Source: Psychrobacter aquaticus CMS 56 (lineage in GTDB: Bacteria > Pseudomonadota > Gammaproteobacteria > Pseudomonadales > Moraxellaceae). Taken from it: 64,000 nucleotides of DNA. This document shows positions 43,613-50,107 of the stretch, one piece after another (position 1 is the stretch's first letter; every line of letters starts with the position of its first letter). The translations under genes and the position numbers were made by a program. Below the pieces are notes generated by a model. It was not told where the DNA came from, ran no database searches, and was given only the letters and a program-made list of their open reading frames with translations. The stretch is from NCBI RefSeq assembly GCF_000471625.1, contig NZ_AUSW01000034.1:62001-126000 (forward strand), read 5' to 3'.

Positions 43613-45889
43613 ATGACACATATTGATAAAATCCAAGTAACCAAACGTGATGGACGTTTAGAGCCTATTGATTTAGATAAAATTCATAAGGTCATAGCGT
43701 GGGCAGCTCACGGTTTGGATAACGTGTCTGTGTCGCAAGTTGAGCTAAAATCGCACATTCAGTTTTATGAAGGCATTAAGACGCGCGATATCCATGAGAC
43801 GATTATTAAGTCAGCAGCTGACCTTATTTCTGAAACGACGCCTGATTATCAGTATCTAGCGGCACGTTTGGCGATCTTCCATCTGCGTAAAATTGCTTAC
43901 AATAGATTCACGCCACCGCACCTTTATGATCATGTCAAAAAACTGACCGACGCTGGCAAATATGATGAGCATATCTTGGCCGATTATAGCCGTGCCGAAT
44001 TTGACGAGCTAGAAGCATACCTTGACCACTGGCGCGATATGAATTTGGCGTATGCTGCCGTTGAGCAAATGGCGGGTAAATACCTCGTTCAAGATCGTGT
44101 GAGCAAGACTGTCTATGAAAGCCCGCAGTTCTTGTACATGCTGGTCGGTATGTGCTTGTTTAGCCAGTATGACAAGTCAGATCGCCTAGACTATGTCAAA
44201 CGCTTCTATGATGCGACGTCTCAGTTCAAAATCTCACTACCAACGCCCATCATGTCAGGTGTACGTACACCATCACGCCAGTTTAGCTCGTGTGTATTGA
44301 TCGAATGTGGTGATAGCCTAGACTCAATCAACGCGACCACCAGTGCCATCGTACGCTATGTGTCACAGCGTGCTGGTATCGGCATCAACGCTGGTCGTAT
44401 CCGCGCCCTTGGTAGCCCTATCCGTGGCGGTGAAGCACAGCATACAGGTTGTATCCCATTCTACAAACTGTTCCAAACCGCGGTGAAATGCTGCTCACAA
44501 GGCGGCGTCCGTGGCGGTGCTGCGACATTGTTCTATCCACTATGGCATCTAGAAGTTGAGTCATTACTGGTACTCAAAAACAATCGCGGCGTCGAAGACA
44601 ACCGTGTCCGTCATATGGATTACGGCGTCCAGTTAAACAAAACGATGTACACTCGCCTCATCAAAGGTCAAGACATCTCGCTATTCTCACCAGGTGACAC
44701 CCCTGGCTTGTATGATGCGTTCTTTGAAGATCAAGACAAGTTCGAAGAGTTATACACCAAGTATGAGAATGACCCTGCTATTCGTAGCCGCCAAATTCCA
44801 GCCGCAGACTTGTTTAGTCTGATGATGCAAGAGCGCGCCAGTACGGGTCGTATCTATATCCAAAATGTCGATCATTGCAACACGCATAGCCCATTTGACC
44901 CGACGGTTGCGCCAATTCGCCAGTCAAACCTATGTATGGAAATTGCTCTACCGACCAAACCGATGGATAACATCAATGACGAAGAAGGCGAAATCGCCCT
45001 GTGTACGCTGTCAGCGGTCAACTTGGGTAAAGTCGAAAACGTTAGCGACATTGAAGAGCCAGCCGAGCTAATCGTGCGTGCGCTTGATGCCCTGCTCGAC
45101 TATCAAGACTATCCAGTCAAAGCCGCTCAAAACGGCAGTATGCGTCGTCGTACGCTTGGTGTGGGCGTGATTAACTATGCGTATTACCTTGCCAAAAATG
45201 GCGTACGCTATTCAGACGACAGCGCGCTTGGTCTAACGCATCAAACGTTTGAAGCATTGCAATTCTATCTCTTGAAAGCGTCAAACAAATTGGCAAAAGA
45301 GCAAGGTGCGTGCCCTGCCTTTAATGAGACCACGTATTCGCAAGGTATCTTGCCGATTGATACGTACAAAGCCGACTTGGATAAAATCTGCCAAGAGCCG
45401 CTACACCTCGATTGGGAAACGCTACGTGGCGAGATCACGGAGCACGGTCTACGCAACTCGACCCTAACCGCCTTGATGCCGTCTGAGACCTCTAGTCAGA
45501 TTGCCAACGCGACCAATGGTATCGAGCCACCACGTGGTCTGGTCTCTATCAAAGCGTCAAAAGATGGCATCCTAAAGCAAGTCGTGCCTGAGATTGACAA
45601 ACTAAAAGATCAGTATGAGCTACTATGGCAAATGCCAAACAATGACGGTTACCTAAAGCTGGTCGCTGTCATGCAAAAGTTCGTCGATCAAAGTATCTCT
45701 GCCAATACCAACTACGATCCGGTTCGTTATGAAGGCGGCCGTGTCCCGATGAAGATATTGCTAAAAGACTTGCTAAACGCTTATAAAATGGGTGTGAAGA
45801 CGTTGTACTACCATAATACTCGTGATGGTGCGAACGATGCCCAAGCAGATATGGAAGATGATTGTGCTGGCGGGGCTTGTAAGATTTAA
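43613..45889 (+). CDS. nrdA: class Ia ribonucleotide reductase alpha subunit NrdA
   Basis: Reduces ribonucleoside diphosphates to deoxy forms with NrdB. 758 residues (E. coli 761). The N-terminal ATP-cone that senses ATP/dATP is present (TKRDGRLEPIDLDKIHKVI). Active-site Cys and helper residues are in FSSCVLIECGDS, NLCMEIALPTKP and CTLSAVNLG, and the C-terminal shuttle Cys pair is in DDCAGGACKI. AAGAGGGCAAC precedes the ATG. Two NrdR-box-like sites lie upstream. Unusually, nrdB is not next: about 3.1 kb of accessory DNA intervenes. Confidence 0.98.
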   Translation: MTHIDKIQVTKRDGRLEPIDLDKIHKVIAWAAHGLDNVSVSQVELKSHIQFYEGIKTRDIHETIIKSAADLISETTPDYQYLAARLAIFHLRKIAYNRFTPPHLYDHVKKLTDAGKYDEHILADYSRAEFDELEAYLDHWRDMNLAYAAVEQMAGKYLVQDRVSKTVYESPQFLYMLVGMCLFSQYDKSDRLDYVKRFYDATSQFKISLPTPIMSGVRTPSRQFSSCVLIECGDSLDSINATTSAIVRYVSQRAGIGINAGRIRALGSPIRGGEAQHTGCIPFYKLFQTAVKCCSQGGVRGGAATLFYPLWHLEVESLLVLKNNRGVEDNRVRHMDYGVQLNKTMYTRLIKGQDISLFSPGDTPGLYDAFFEDQDKFEELYTKYENDPAIRSRQIPAADLFSLMMQERASTGRIYIQNVDHCNTHSPFDPTVAPIRQSNLCMEIALPTKPMDNINDEEGEIALCTLSAVNLGKVENVSDIEEPAELIVRALDALLDYQDYPVKAAQNGSMRRRTLGVGVINYAYYLAKNGVRYSDDSALGLTHQTFEALQFYLLKASNKLAKEQGACPAFNETTYSQGILPIDTYKADLDKICQEPLHLDWETLRGEITEHGLRNSTLTALMPSETSSQIANATNGIEPPRGLVSIKASKDGILKQVVPEIDKLKDQYELLWQMPNNDGYLKLVAVMQKFVDQSISANTNYDPVRYEGGRVPMKILLKDLLNAYKMGVKTLYYHNTRDGANDAQADMEDDCAGGACKI

Positions 45890-46016
45890 GCTATTGATAG
45901 GCGGCGGGTTTGGCTCTTGGGTTAAGTCCGCTGTTTAGTGCTATGAAACTTTCTAGGGAATGGACGTAGTGGAGTTACGCTACATGAACTATTACTTATA
46001 ATTGGTAATAATTATT

Positions 46017-47657
46017 ATGGAAAATATAACAATAAGACCTAATATGAAAATAGGTCAACTAGATGCTGAAAATGATACTAAATTCTTATCAGAATGTTAT
46101 GTTGATAACAATATTATTGAAATATTAGTAGATACAAGCTCTAGCGAAGCACTAATTTTAGGAAGACCTGGAGCAGGTAAAACAGCATCATTAATAACCG
46201 TAAATAACTCGATAGATAAAGAACACTCAAAACTACTTGATCTAGAAGGTGTGTTTTTAAGATATATTGACAATTCAAATATAATAAAATTTTTGACAGA
46301 AAACGATGTAAATTTGGATCTGTTTTATAAATATCTTTGGCGTCATATTCTGACTGTTGAGTTTCTCAAACTAAAATACCCCCATATAGAAGATAAAAAT
46401 AAATTTTTTCAATTTATAAATGACTTAAAAGATTTAATACGCAGACCTGAAGAAAAGACCGCATTAAATTATTTAGAAACTTGGTCTGACAAGTATTGGG
46501 TAGAGACTGTAGAAAACATTGAAGAAATAGTTAAAAGTTTTTCTAGTGATATAAGCGGAGAGTTCGAAGCAGGATTTCTCGAAAATAAGTTATCTTTAGC
46601 AGCAGGACAAAATTTATCTGAAGAACAAAAAATTCAGGTAAAACATAGAGCTCAAAAAATAGTCAATAATCTACAAATATCTCACCTATCTAAAGTTATC
46701 GACTTAATGGACAAACATGTTTTTAACGATAGTAAGAAACCATATTATTTATTGATAGATAGGCTCGATGAAAACTGGGTCTCAATAGAGGTGAAGTACA
46801 GCTTAATTAAAGGTTTGATTGAAGAGATAAGGCAATTTAGAAATATAAAAAATGTAAAAATCTTAGTATCTTTGAGAGTGGATTTATATCAATTAACACT
46901 GGAAAAGACAAGATCTAGTGGATTCCAAGAAGATAAGCTACAGTCAATTATATATAATTTAAAATGGACAGATAAATTATTAAAAGAAGTAGTTAACAAA
47001 CGTATTTCTTTTCTATTTATGCATCAATATACAAATGTAGATATTAAATTTGAACATTTATTCCCTTCAACTAATAGTAGAAACGGTGATGCATGGCAAT
47101 ATCTTCTTAAAAGAACTTTTTGGAGACCTAGAGACATACTACACTTTGTAAACTACTGTTTGAGTGAGTCAGTTGAAAAAAATTTGGTCGAATGGAGTGC
47201 TATTTATCGTGCTGAGAAAGAGTACTCTAAAGATAGACTAAAGGGGTTGTATGAAGAGTGGTATGACATTTATCCATCATTACAGTATATGACACATATA
47301 TTATCAAATTCTGAAGAAGTAATAAGCATAACTAGCTTTCAACGAAATTTATCAGAAGATAATATTCTAAATCTTTATCAAATATTTAAAAAAAATAAAG
47401 TTAATGATGAAGTCACGAGTGTCATTTATAATTTTATAGATGAAGATATATATCAAAAAGATGATGTTACTTTCGAAATATTAAGCTGTTTTTATCGAAC
47501 AGGTATAATTGGCATTTCAGACAATTTGCCTGACAGCTTTGATTGGTCTTTTCGCCACTCCTCTCACAAATCCAGTTTTGAATGTAGTCAATCTAAATGG
47601 ATAAAAATTCACAAAATGTTTCACCAAGCACTACATATTATACAACCAGCGCATTAG
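46017..47657 (+). CDS. orphan P-loop ATPase (Sll1717-like), AT-rich, between nrdA and nrdB
   Basis: Not a housekeeping gene. From the ATG at 46017 the product has 546 residues; a TTG five codons upstream is in frame. Neither start has a strong ribosome binding site. Walker A is GRPGAGKT (about residues 49-56), preceded by GQLDAENDTKFLSECYVDN; Walker B is YYLLIDRLDE (about 243-252). A later FRNIKNVKILVSLRVD strand and a RPRDILHFVNY arginine segment resemble sensor parts of STAND/KAP-like ATPases. From memory the layout fits the poorly known Sll1717-type P-loop ATPases. The C-terminal 150 residues are alpha-rich without recognised motif. Codon use is much more AT-rich than in nrdA and nrdB (many AAA, ATA, TTA codons), suggesting horizontal acquisition. 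Function unknown; a phage-defence or stress role is inference from context. Confidence 0.8.
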   Translation: MENITIRPNMKIGQLDAENDTKFLSECYVDNNIIEILVDTSSSEALILGRPGAGKTASLITVNNSIDKEHSKLLDLEGVFLRYIDNSNIIKFLTENDVNLDLFYKYLWRHILTVEFLKLKYPHIEDKNKFFQFINDLKDLIRRPEEKTALNYLETWSDKYWVETVENIEEIVKSFSSDISGEFEAGFLENKLSLAAGQNLSEEQKIQVKHRAQKIVNNLQISHLSKVIDLMDKHVFNDSKKPYYLLIDRLDENWVSIEVKYSLIKGLIEEIRQFRNIKNVKILVSLRVDLYQLTLEKTRSSGFQEDKLQSIIYNLKWTDKLLKEVVNKRISFLFMHQYTNVDIKFEHLFPSTNSRNGDAWQYLLKRTFWRPRDILHFVNYCLSESVEKNLVEWSAIYRAEKEYSKDRLKGLYEEWYDIYPSLQYMTHILSNSEEVISITSFQRNLSEDNILNLYQIFKKNKVNDEVTSVIYNFIDEDIYQKDDVTFEILSCFYRTGIIGISDNLPDSFDWSFRHSSHKSSFECSQSKWIKIHKMFHQALHIIQPAH

Positions 47658-47658
47658 T

Positions 47659-47725
47659 TGTAGGGTGCGCCCAGCGCACCGATGATATAGAAATTATGTT
47701 TAAAGGTGCGCAAGGCACACCCTAC
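47659..47725. repeat. GTAGGGTGCG-type inverted repeat (REP-like element)
   Basis: Outer arms TGTAGGGTGCGC and GCACACCCTACA are complementary at 11 of 12 positions, with inner CGCACC / GGTGCG arms. The GTAGGGTGCG motif recurs as a dispersed palindrome in many bacterial genomes (established knowledge). It lies directly after the ATPase gene and marks the boundary of the toxin-antitoxin segment. Confidence 0.75.
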
Positions 47726-47817: not shown

Positions 47818-48069
47818 ATGCAACCAATATTTGCGACACAAACAGCCAGTATTTCAGAGCTAAAAAACAATCCTTCGGCATTGATAAAACAGTCAGATGG
47901 TGAATCGATTGCTATTTTAAACCACAACAAACCCGTGGCGTACTTAGTCTCAACCGACGTTTTTGAGCGCATGATGGAAGCGATGGACGATATGGCATTA
48001 AGCCAAACTGTTAGCGCCCGGATGAATGATGGTCAGATACCTGTAAAGGTAACTTTAGATGACTTATAG
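47818..48069 (+). CDS. Phd/YefM-like (StbD-type) antitoxin
   Basis: 83-residue type II antitoxin. The N-terminal DNA-binding part (ATQTASISELKNNPSALIKQ, then SIAILNHNKPVAYLVS) is typical of the Phd/YefM and StbD groups. The C-terminal tail that wraps the toxin ends MNDGQIPVKVTLDDL. The ATG at 47818 follows ACGGAGAATGAATC. Its stop lies inside the toxin gene (11-base overlap), giving translational coupling. An operator-like palindrome precedes it. Confidence 0.9.
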   Translation: MQPIFATQTASISELKNNPSALIKQSDGESIAILNHNKPVAYLVSTDVFERMMEAMDDMALSQTVSARMNDGQIPVKVTLDDL

Positions 48070-48346
48070 TCTTGAGTTTCACCCGTTAGCGTTAAAAGAA
48101 TGGAAAAAGATAGCACCAAATATTCAGCAGCAGTTTAAGAAAAAATTACAGCAACGATTATCAAACCCTCATGTGCCTGCGTCAAAACTCTCAGGACACA
48201 CAGATACTTATAAAATTAAATTACGCACCATAGGTTATCGTCTGGTATATACCGTCAAAGATGACGTGGTGGTCGTTTATGTATTAGCAGTCGGCAAAAG
48301 AGAAAATAACAAAGTATATGACAGTCTAGCGACGCGTCAACCATAA
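48059..48346 (+). CDS. RelE/StbE-family mRNA interferase toxin
   Basis: 95-residue RelE-fold toxin that should cleave mRNA at the ribosome. Family marks: YSLEFHPLALKEWKKI at the start, PASKLSGHTDTYKIKL in the middle, and the C-terminal GYRLVYTVKDD and VYVLAVGKRENNKVY. The basic residues expected in the active site (Lys/Arg and the C-terminal Tyr) are present. It overlaps the antitoxin by 11 bases. The pair resembles plasmid stabilisation modules (StbDE) that are common on chromosomes. Confidence 0.92.
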   Translation: MTYSLEFHPLALKEWKKIAPNIQQQFKKKLQQRLSNPHVPASKLSGHTDTYKIKLRTIGYRLVYTVKDDVVVVYVLAVGKRENNKVYDSLATRQP

Positions 48347-48385: not shown

Positions 48386-48742
48386 GTGCAATATACCGCA
48401 ATCATCAAAGACGGTGGTTTGTTTATCCCAAACGTATTTTCAGACATAAACGATGGTGGCTCGCATATCGTACAAGTCGAGGTTGATATTGCCGACGTGC
48501 GTCAGCAGTTAAGCGCAAGTGTAGAGTTAAAGACAGACGCGCCAAGAGCACCCAAAAAGCAGGTGAAGAAGCAGACCAAAAAAGAAGTACAAAAAACATT
48601 GGAAAACGCTGATGTGAGTACACTGCGCAAGAGCGCACTTGATGAATTAGAAGCATTAGATGATAGTGAGCTGAGCGAGATGTTCAAAGCCTATATGAAT
48701 GATGGACAAGAATCCTCACAGATATCACTAGAGAATCTATAA
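48386..48742 (+). CDS. small protein with antitoxin-like C-terminal tail
   Basis: 118-residue protein of unknown function, 39 bases after the toxin gene. It starts at GTG (48386) with GGAG five bases ahead; an out-of-frame ATG sits two bases upstream. The N-terminus MQYTAIIKDGGLFIPNVF predicts a small beta domain. A Lys/Ala/Pro-rich linker follows (about 52-70), then an acidic helical part. The last 15 residues MNDGQESSQISLENL parallel the antitoxin tail MNDGQIPVKVTLDDL. This suggests a second, orphan antitoxin or immunity-type protein able to engage a RelE toxin. It precedes copy 4 of the palindromic repeat. Confidence 0.65.
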   Translation: MQYTAIIKDGGLFIPNVFSDINDGGSHIVQVEVDIADVRQQLSASVELKTDAPRAPKKQVKKQTKKEVQKTLENADVSTLRKSALDELEALDDSELSEMFKAYMNDGQESSQISLENL

Positions 48743-48973: not shown

Positions 48974-50107
48974 ATGACTTACTCGATTTTTTCTCAAACG
49001 CCAAACAATGCGCTCAAAGAGCCAATGTTCTTTGGTCAGCCGGTCAATATTGCCCGCTATGACCAACAAAAGCATCCGATCTTTGAGCAATTGATTGAAA
49101 AGCAGCTGTCGTTCTTTTGGCGTCCAGAAGAAGTTGATGTGTCACGTGATCGTATCGATTTTAGCAATCTGTCCTCGCATGAGCAGCACATATTTTTGAG
49201 CAACCTCAAGTACCAGACCCTACTCGACTCTATCCAAGGTCGTAGTCCAAACGTGGTGCTATTGCCGCTAGTGTCTATCCCTGAGCTTGAAACGTGGATT
49301 GAGACATGGTCGTTCTCTGAAACCATTCACTCACGCAGCTATACGCATATCATTCGTAATATCGTCAATGATCCCAATATTATCTTTGATGACATCATGC
49401 AAAATGAGCATATTTTAGGCCGTGCCTCTGATATCGCCCAGTACTATGATGATTTGTACCGCAACTCACAGCTCTATAGCTTGTACGGTGCGGGTACGCA
49501 CAACATCAACGGCGAGCAAGTTACTGTTGATTTGAGATCACTGAAAAAGCAGATGTATCTATGCATCATGGCGGTTAATGTCCTAGAAGCCATTCGCTTT
49601 TATGTGTCATTTGCCTGCTCGTTCGCTTTTGCTGAGCGCAAACTGATGGAAGGCAATGCCAAGATTATTAAATTAATTGCGCGTGACGAAGCGCTGCATT
49701 TGACGGGTACACAGCACATGCTGAACCTCATGCGTAATGGTCGTGACGATCCAGAAATGGTTGAGATTGCCGCAGAGTGCTATGAAGACAGTATCGAAAT
49801 CTTCCGCAAAGCTGCCGAACAAGAAAAAGAGTGGGCAGGCTATCTGTTCAAAGATGGTTCGATGATTGGTTTGAATAAAGACATTCTGTGCCAATATATC
49901 GAATACATCACCAACTTGCGTATGGAAGCGGTCGGCTTGCCAGCGGCGTTCCCGAAATCAAAATCAAACCCGATTCCGTGGATCAATACATGGTTGTCAT
50001 CAGACAACGTGCAAGTTGCGCCGCAAGAGACCGAGATTAGCTCGTACTTGGTGGGTCAGATTGATTCTGATTTATCAGACAGCGATTTTGATGACTTTGA
50101 ACTGTAA
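48974..50107 (+). CDS. nrdB: class Ia ribonucleotide reductase beta subunit NrdB
   Basis: Di-iron tyrosyl-radical subunit of ribonucleotide reductase, 377 residues (E. coli 376). The radical Tyr is in [10 protein letters not shown]; iron ligands lie in [18 protein letters not shown] and [13 protein letters not shown]. The C-terminal tail that docks on NrdA ends [10 protein letters not shown]. The ATG at 48974 has only a weak ribosome binding site (AAAGGCAGTCCC). Because about 3.1 kb and several genes separate it from nrdA, it probably needs its own promoter; none was recognised in the spacer. The ferredoxin gene follows. Confidence 0.98.

Follow-up and report, generated by a model that had tools for sequence, protein, structure and literature searches.

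The nrdA and nrdB genes of class Ia ribonucleotide reductase (RNR) in Psychrobacter aquaticus CMS 56 are separated by an AT-rich gene for a 546-residue P-loop ATPase, which raises the question of how this gene came to lie there and what it does. The window analysed was a stretch of 64,000 nucleotides (assembly GCF_000471625.1, contig NZ_AUSW01000034.1, positions 62,001 to 126,000); the genome that holds it is referred to as G000 and the ATPase as P0001. A preliminary description of this DNA had proposed a single-gene or ATPase-led defence or stress module placed at an accessory hotspot. Comparison across the genus revealed that the nrdA-nrdB slot is certainly a variable, defence-rich locus, and it is a new variant within the known class of defence hotspots. 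The ATPase is probably a single-gene anti-phage cassette of this genus-specific slot, with abortive infection as the probable mode of action.

The interval was compared in 105 Psychrobacter genomes, in which nrdA and nrdB were each found in 103 and from which 90 intervals were fetched. Among the 15 genomes that gave no interval, the two genes were on different contigs in seven and one gene was not found in four; low-completeness assemblies with broken or cut genes (G048, G050, G080 and G095) were left out. The main clade comprised 75 loci (L039-L112 and L128), and 15 loci in which nrdA and nrdB are more divergent (L113-L127) were set apart. Three further stretches stood outside the counts: another nrdA-linked region in G056 (L130), an extended stretch of G009 (L131) and the off-site locus of G025 (L129). 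Seven open reading frame (ORF) clusters (0, 1, 3, 6, 11, 12 and 15) were excluded from the cargo counts; these hold the toxin-antitoxin genes, a 118-residue gene and the frames antisense to it, and further small or minus-strand ORFs that recur.

The 90 intervals ranged from 206 to 9454 bases with a median of 2418, and in the main clade the slot was always occupied, giving intervals of 1427-5219 bases. The largest cargo of the 75 main-clade loci fell into 36 clusters, 19 of them singletons, and the commonest was present in 10 loci. The cargo of this clade had a guanine plus cytosine (GC) content of 0.319 (maximum 0.370) compared with 0.449 for the flanks, and 117 of the 118 cargo ORFs of at least 90 residues were co-directional with nrdAB. 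Cargo differed in 47 of the 48 pairs of loci whose 200-base flanks were both at least 97% identical; between L064 and L065 the flanks were identical and the cargo unrelated. The genome with nrdA and nrdB most similar to those of G000 (G104) matched the window as far as the nrdA stop codon, and the match returned at the palindrome that follows the ATPase gene, save for a further gap before nrdB. In 30 of 89 loci this palindrome was the exact point at which homology to the window restarted; in others it restarted further right, at the toxin-antitoxin pair or the 118-residue gene. The gap between nrdB and the ferredoxin gene served as a control in the 30 genomes with the most similar nrdB, where it measured 34-328 bases and was empty in 29, the thirtieth having nrdB at a contig end; nrdA and nrdB were 1681-5119 bases apart in 27 of the same genomes.

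A slot common to related genera was considered and rejected after a comparison of 81 genomes outside the genus, which did not extend to those whose NrdA, at 28-32% identity, is of another RNR type. In g277 and g280 nrdA and nrdB were tens of kilobases or more apart or on separate contigs, and in G484 they were adjacent, with a gap of approximately 270 bases and no cargo. Fixed neighbours enclosing interchangeable defence systems are likewise described for Escherichia coli and Pseudomonas (PMC10121019 and PMC12629846, respectively). The present units differ from those hotspots in their location between two RNR genes and in their size, usually a single gene or a handful; they almost always point the same way, frequently with a palindrome behind them. 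No publication on a Psychrobacter nrdA-nrdB hotspot was found in searches of the open-licence PubMed Central literature.

The nature of the cargo was examined by scanning one protein from each of 30 hand-chosen cargo kinds against PADLOC (clusters 2, 10, 13, 14 and 16 were among those outside this choice). Twelve kinds, spanning 25 of the 90 loci, gave matches at 1e-8: AriAB of PARIS (2e-193), the CD-NTase of CBASS (3e-146), DRT8 (2e-138), PDC-S15 (6e-105), PDC-S20 (3e-91, the same protein also matching PifA at 5e-21), a mad6/PD-T4-6 kinase (6e-35), AbiU (4e-25), PDC-S31 (7e-21), PifA (6e-15), PDC-S66 (4e-13), a caspase (4e-11) and, marginally, PDC-S12 (9.7e-9). None of 10 window proteins scanned as a control gave a match. 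The other 18 kinds had no PADLOC match at 1e-8 yet share their place with CBASS, PARIS and DRT8 genes, which makes the slot an efficient hunting ground for new anti-phage genes. Bulk scans covered 65 of the 87 cluster representatives, leaving out the ATPase, the unusual intervals L115, L120, L122 and L124 and one short ORF, and the 25 Pfam families listed, of 56 matched, included SMODS, KAP_NTPase (2 of the 65 proteins), Cap15, S_4TM, SLATT_6, TIR, FRG, DUF4238 and DUF4062. Proteins of the last type have recently been reported as antiphage NADases (PMC13174449). The accessory hotspot proposed earlier was therefore firmly substantiated, with cargo that changes among close relatives at this exact place and includes many recognised defence genes.

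The ATPase gene is one of the rarer occupants. Homologues were present in five of the 105 genomes, four of them at the nrdA-nrdB site (G000 itself; G029, 79% identical; G023, 73%; and a broken copy in G021), and the fifth (G025, 58%) on a contig other than that of nrdAB. Measured in 500-base steps, the GC content was 0.27-0.31 in the ATPase gene, 0.46-0.51 wholly inside nrdA and 0.45 inside nrdB, and the GC content at third codon positions was 0.216 compared with 0.417 ± 0.049 (minimum 0.313) for 20 hand-picked window ORFs. The AT-richness relative to the neighbours described previously was thus upheld, and the gene is confined to 5 of 105 genomes and atypical in codon use, contrary to what a universal resident of the site would show. 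Comparison with the G029 homologue gave a nonsynonymous rate (dN) of 0.12 and a synonymous rate (dS) of 2.1, the latter near saturation, indicating purifying selection; dS relative to two other homologues was too high to estimate. The broken G021 copy at the site contains an internal stop and a frame change, perhaps reflecting loss once a threat had gone, or a cost of carriage.

The cargo lies inside the nrdAB unit, and the ATPase gene, which shares the strand of nrdA and nrdB and sits between them, might be an nrdAB-linked accessory factor for deoxynucleoside triphosphate (dNTP) supply, DNA repair or replication stress, its operon place functional and unrelated to defence. The annotation "DNA repair protein" on some plasmid homologues would agree with this, as would the predicted ORC/Cdc6/RFC-like fold and the 5-7 fold increase of nrdAB in the DNA-damage transcriptome of Acinetobacter baylyi reported in PMC3978071. 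Such a role is nevertheless quite improbable, since no more than 4 of the 105 genomes have the ATPase at nrdA-nrdB and the other loci read contain unrelated cargo instead. Relatives occur on plasmids and viral contigs, and the plasmid neighbourhoods that were read had no annotated nrd gene.

The ATPase had been labelled an orphan, a status that was rejected when the protein matched the curated family NF047389 ('P-loop ATPase, Sll1717 family') over the full model (positions 1-454 of 454) with 3.7e-58 and 197.8 bits against a cut-off of 75. The conserved Walker A and B motifs are shared with the family. The match covers 528 residues against 454 model positions, and the approximately 74 extra residues would fall in the helical region that separates the two Walker motifs. 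The Walker A (GRPGAGKT) and Walker B (YYLLIDRLDE) motifs of the 546-residue protein are intact, as stated in the preliminary description, and residues G49, G52, G54, K55, D248 and D251 did not vary across alignments of 9 and of 17 sequences. Of the families named there for a profile check, Sll1717 was confirmed, while identity as a KAP NTPase was rejected, the ATPase giving no PF07693 match at E≤1. Searches of Pfam, PADLOC and PDB sequences gave nothing convincing for the ATPase, the PDB sequence search being without any hit, and in a profile search the best value was 0.02, with nearly all matches confined to the P-loop stretches. No function was found for the Sll1717 family, a term not met in the open-licence PubMed Central literature, and no housekeeping role for the ATPase emerged from Pfam, NCBIfam, PADLOC, PDB sequence or literature searches.

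A distant link to an experimentally characterised system was provided by NF053860 ('DS41_1 antiphage'), which the G025 homologue matched at 5.6e-18 over most of the model (positions 10-407 of 448) and which was also matched by plasmid and F-plasmid homologues, in every case far under the model cut-off. DS-41 was validated against phage, according to the DefensePredictor report (PMC13092281); NCBIfam DS41_1 is equated here with that system by name only. Membership of the ATPase in DS-41 was rejected in favour of a distant relationship, since it was not listed for NF053860 at E≤1.

The predicted model of the ATPase had a mean predicted local distance difference test score (pLDDT) of 81.6 and a predicted template modelling score (pTM) of 0.80. 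The best VIA-align match was the NB-ARC region of a plant TIR-NLR (WRR4A; Z 11.2, residues 22-541, 302 aligned, root-mean-square deviation (rmsd) 6.4), followed by Cdc6 (Z 10.8), NRC4 (10.7) and RdrA (10.0), with many rows tied with general AAA+ proteins. Foldseek placed BrxC first (8e-4), with RdrA (2e-3) and Cdc6 after it, all with weak scores, and a fold search of BFVD gave nothing under 0.001. The presence of BrxC (BREX) and RdrA (RADAR) among the top Foldseek matches is a resemblance of fold only, given the 9-13% identity and low TM-score, and no BREX or RADAR partner genes were recognised between nrdA and nrdB in the window. Plasmid relatives gave nSTAND Pfam matches of 1.5e-5 and weaker, below the cut-off. 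No repeat match that might mark a C-terminal sensor was obtained for the ATPase in Pfam, although no search dedicated to repeats was made; sequence and model both stop at residue 546, shortly beyond the part aligned with winged-helix regions. The model was read as an ORC/Cdc6-STAND-type AAA+ switch, which would consist of a nucleotide-binding domain, a C-terminal part resembling a winged helix and, between the two Walker motifs, a helical insert. Bound nucleotide would keep such a switch inactive until an infection cue was sensed, whereupon the protein would halt phage replication or host metabolism.

Relatives of the ATPase also occur outside the genus. In a search of the class, 11 of 369 genomes were over the Sll1717 family cut-off, and in the loci read (approximately 1.5 kb per side) the gene was mostly alone. 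Relatives were present in 276 plasmid records, mainly of Enterobacteriaceae. In most of the seven plasmid stretches read the gene was near replication or partition genes, a resolvase or integrase, or toxin-antitoxin genes, and one, on a large plasmid, had no such genes nearby. The F plasmid carries a 698-residue member of the family (L164:4303-6399, minus strand; NF047389 1e-86, NF053860 1.2e-14) that adjoins a resolvase and a Tn3-type transposase. Viral contigs held at least 31 relatives. On three of these (L180, L181 and L184) the relative sits between the P2-type portal (phrog_68) and gpA (phrog_91); on a fourth (L179) gpA (phrog_91) is on one side and the ORF on the other is portal-like by sequence likeness only. 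The gpA-gpQ region of P2-type prophages is a published defence hotspot (PMC9122126). The two places are alike in having conserved walls around variable defence cargo, and the P2 hotspot holds Sll1717 ATPases in three viral contigs, probably four; they differ in that the P2 hotspot is within a phage, near cos, while the present slot is chromosomal. The phage collection contained relatives in only two Klebsiella phage records (110 kb), at 18.8%.

The proximity of relatives to plasmid replication and partition genes and to resolvases, and their presence on those two records named Klebsiella phages, could suggest a selfish or plasmid-competition role for the ATPase, with other mobile elements and not phage as its real target. 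We regard this as unlikely, for the company in the slot includes phage-exclusion types, and activity against phage was validated for its distant relative DS-41 (PMC13092281).

We take the F-plasmid protein, from a name in PMC6340991, to be TnpX of Tn1000 (gamma-delta). It belongs to the same NF047389 family as the ATPase, but is only 21% identical to it and extends approximately 220 residues past the family model at its C-terminus. A link through the Sll1717 family would give a probable role to this unexplained passenger, which may have a phage-exclusion function. Many plasmid copies match in two or three pieces. The best members from the class search (L132:631-2937, L133:616-2964 and L134:1486-3807) are about 770 residues long, with about 290 extra N-terminal residues that weakly resemble nucleoside 2-deoxyribosyltransferases (7e-5 to 0.027, below the cut-off), and these could possibly join a nucleotide-acting effector to the ATPase.

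The manner in which cargo is exchanged was examined from the boundaries of the slot. The REP-like (repetitive extragenic palindromic) repeat of the preliminary description is a near-perfect palindrome that begins 2 bases past the ATPase stop codon, and the 81-base stretch containing it has a fold of -41.7 kcal/mol (z -7.9). In its strict form it occurs once in the whole 3.2-Mb G000 genome, at the slot. Strict copies were present in 27 of the 75 main-clade loci and looser copies of the same type in 34, and in 43 a palindrome arm lay between 60 bases before and 200 bases after the last cargo stop. The slot accounted for 22 of 74 strict copies (G000-G080, counted by hand) and held the sole copy in 13 genomes. 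One locus (G039, L126) resembles a small array of cassettes, with three successive cargo units that each have one or more near-identical palindromes after them. Together these features might suggest an integron-like slot, the target of a site-specific recombinase that moves cassettes of ORF plus palindrome, rather than a site of homologous recombination. That arrangement is scarcely probable. Strict palindromes are found elsewhere too, at 0-14 copies per genome, hence their REP-like appearance, and they are present in 47 of the 105 genomes and absent from 58. Those of the slot have a common spacer, so that many may be inherited and not independent, and the left breaks are spread over more than one base. 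An integron was rejected because the integrase (TIGR02249, E≤1e-30) occurs in only 2 of the 105 genomes and not in G000, and a mechanism based on a REP-associated Y1 transposase was rejected because none was found in G000.

Homologous exchange through the walls is, given the lack of both enzymes in G000, the simplest reading. Cassettes would be swapped by homologous recombination after DNA uptake, through a left wall formed by the nrdA 3' end and a right wall formed by the palindrome, the toxin-antitoxin pair, the 118-residue gene and nrdB. In one genome (G009; L068, approximately 674-800) two cargo genes have between them a 127-base relic of the 3' end of nrdA, 90.6% identical to the nrdA end of G023, and no other relic of this kind was detected in the 90 intervals. 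It looks from this sequence as if new cargo had arrived along with a fresh nrdA end, leaving an insertion footprint. The slot makes testable, in an ordinary environmental genus, both the swapping of chromosomal defence genes that lack a recombinase of their own and the lending of inducible expression by the RNR operon. In a bolder and unlikely version, the slot would be a dedicated, integrase-free platform on which units of one or more defence ORFs and a palindrome are stacked and swapped, in the space from the nrdA 3' end to the palindrome, by an undescribed form of recombination, with the RNR operon co-inducing defence when dNTPs are drained by phage replication or DNA damage. If that were true, the unmatched cargo kinds, the ATPase included, would form a ready list of new anti-phage systems.

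Several observations weigh against the interpretation of the ATPase as an anti-phage cassette exchanged in a defence slot. We know of no phage test of the protein, it had no PADLOC value better than 0.005, and no effector domain was recognised in it. The best NF053860 score among its relatives was 65 bits, against an equivalog cut-off of 370. The structural matches are of low identity (9-16% in the VIA-align rows), general AAA+ proteins score equally well in many rows, and at the top of the Foldseek ranking the TM-scores are 0.2-0.4 and the rmsd is large. The PADLOC control set was small and consisted of ordinary chromosomal genes, and with 18 of 30 kinds unmatched the slot is not proved to be a defence-only site. 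Nor does the left boundary fall at a single base: of the 47 close pairs with different cargo, 33 have the left break at most 5 bases from where the nrdA stop codon ends, and the other 14 share a leader and break 6-103 bases past that point. Protection against phage by the ATPase remains likely from its associations, namely the alternative cargo at the same place, the relatives in the P2 hotspot and those on plasmids and beside resolvases, and the distant link to DS-41. The single-gene defence module proposed at the outset is supported to this extent, by association and not by experiment.

The layout of the locus is given in Table 1. The placement between nrdA and nrdB and the adjacent toxin-antitoxin pair, both part of the preliminary description, were confirmed by PDB sequence matches and by Pfam profiles, respectively.

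Table 1. Arrangement of features at the nrdA-nrdB slot of the window
Feature	Coordinates	Strand	Evidence and remarks
nrdA, class Ia ribonucleotide reductase alpha	43613..45889	+	PDB matches to R1 subunit, residues 7-758; left wall of the slot
Hairpin directly 3' of the nrdA stop, possible attenuator or terminator, recurring leader	45898..45937	+	Minimum free energy stem
Cargo: Sll1717-family P-loop ATPase, 546 residues, single gene	46017..47657	+	NF047389 3.7e-58
REP-like palindrome, 66 bases, right boundary of the cargo	47660..47725	.	Fold z -7.9
Phd/YefM-type antitoxin	47818..48069	+	PF02604 1.6e-13
ParE/RelE-type toxin	48059..48346	+	PF05016 5.2e-15; ParE cluster present in 34 of 90 loci
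118-residue protein, recurrent just upstream of nrdB	48386..48742	+	Cluster members of at least 110 residues in 67 of 90 loci
nrdB, class Ia ribonucleotide reductase beta	48974..50107	+	Full-length PDB matches to R2 subunit; right wall of the slot

The ATPase ORF begins with an ATG that gives 546 residues, and an alternative upstream TTG at 46002 would give 551; an ATG is present at the equivalent place in the homologues of G029, G023 and G025. The hairpin after nrdA had a z of only -1.5, with 12 of 200 shuffles folding equally well, and is not clearly above chance. A crude motif for its 5' arm was present within approximately 110 nucleotides of the nrdA stop in 41 of the 75 main-clade loci. 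Scans for promoters and terminators found about as many as in shuffled sequence, with no excess, and were not used.

The contigs C5, C14 and C30 of G056 contain two nrdA/nrdB sets, one of which (85% NrdA) has an nrdA 3' fragment approximately 2.2 kb downstream; this could be either a real second locus or a mixed assembly. The 118-residue protein upstream of nrdB gave nothing over the cut-off in Pfam or NCBIfam. The members of its cluster range from 110 to 153 residues, and their C-terminus resembles that of the adjoining Phd antitoxin.

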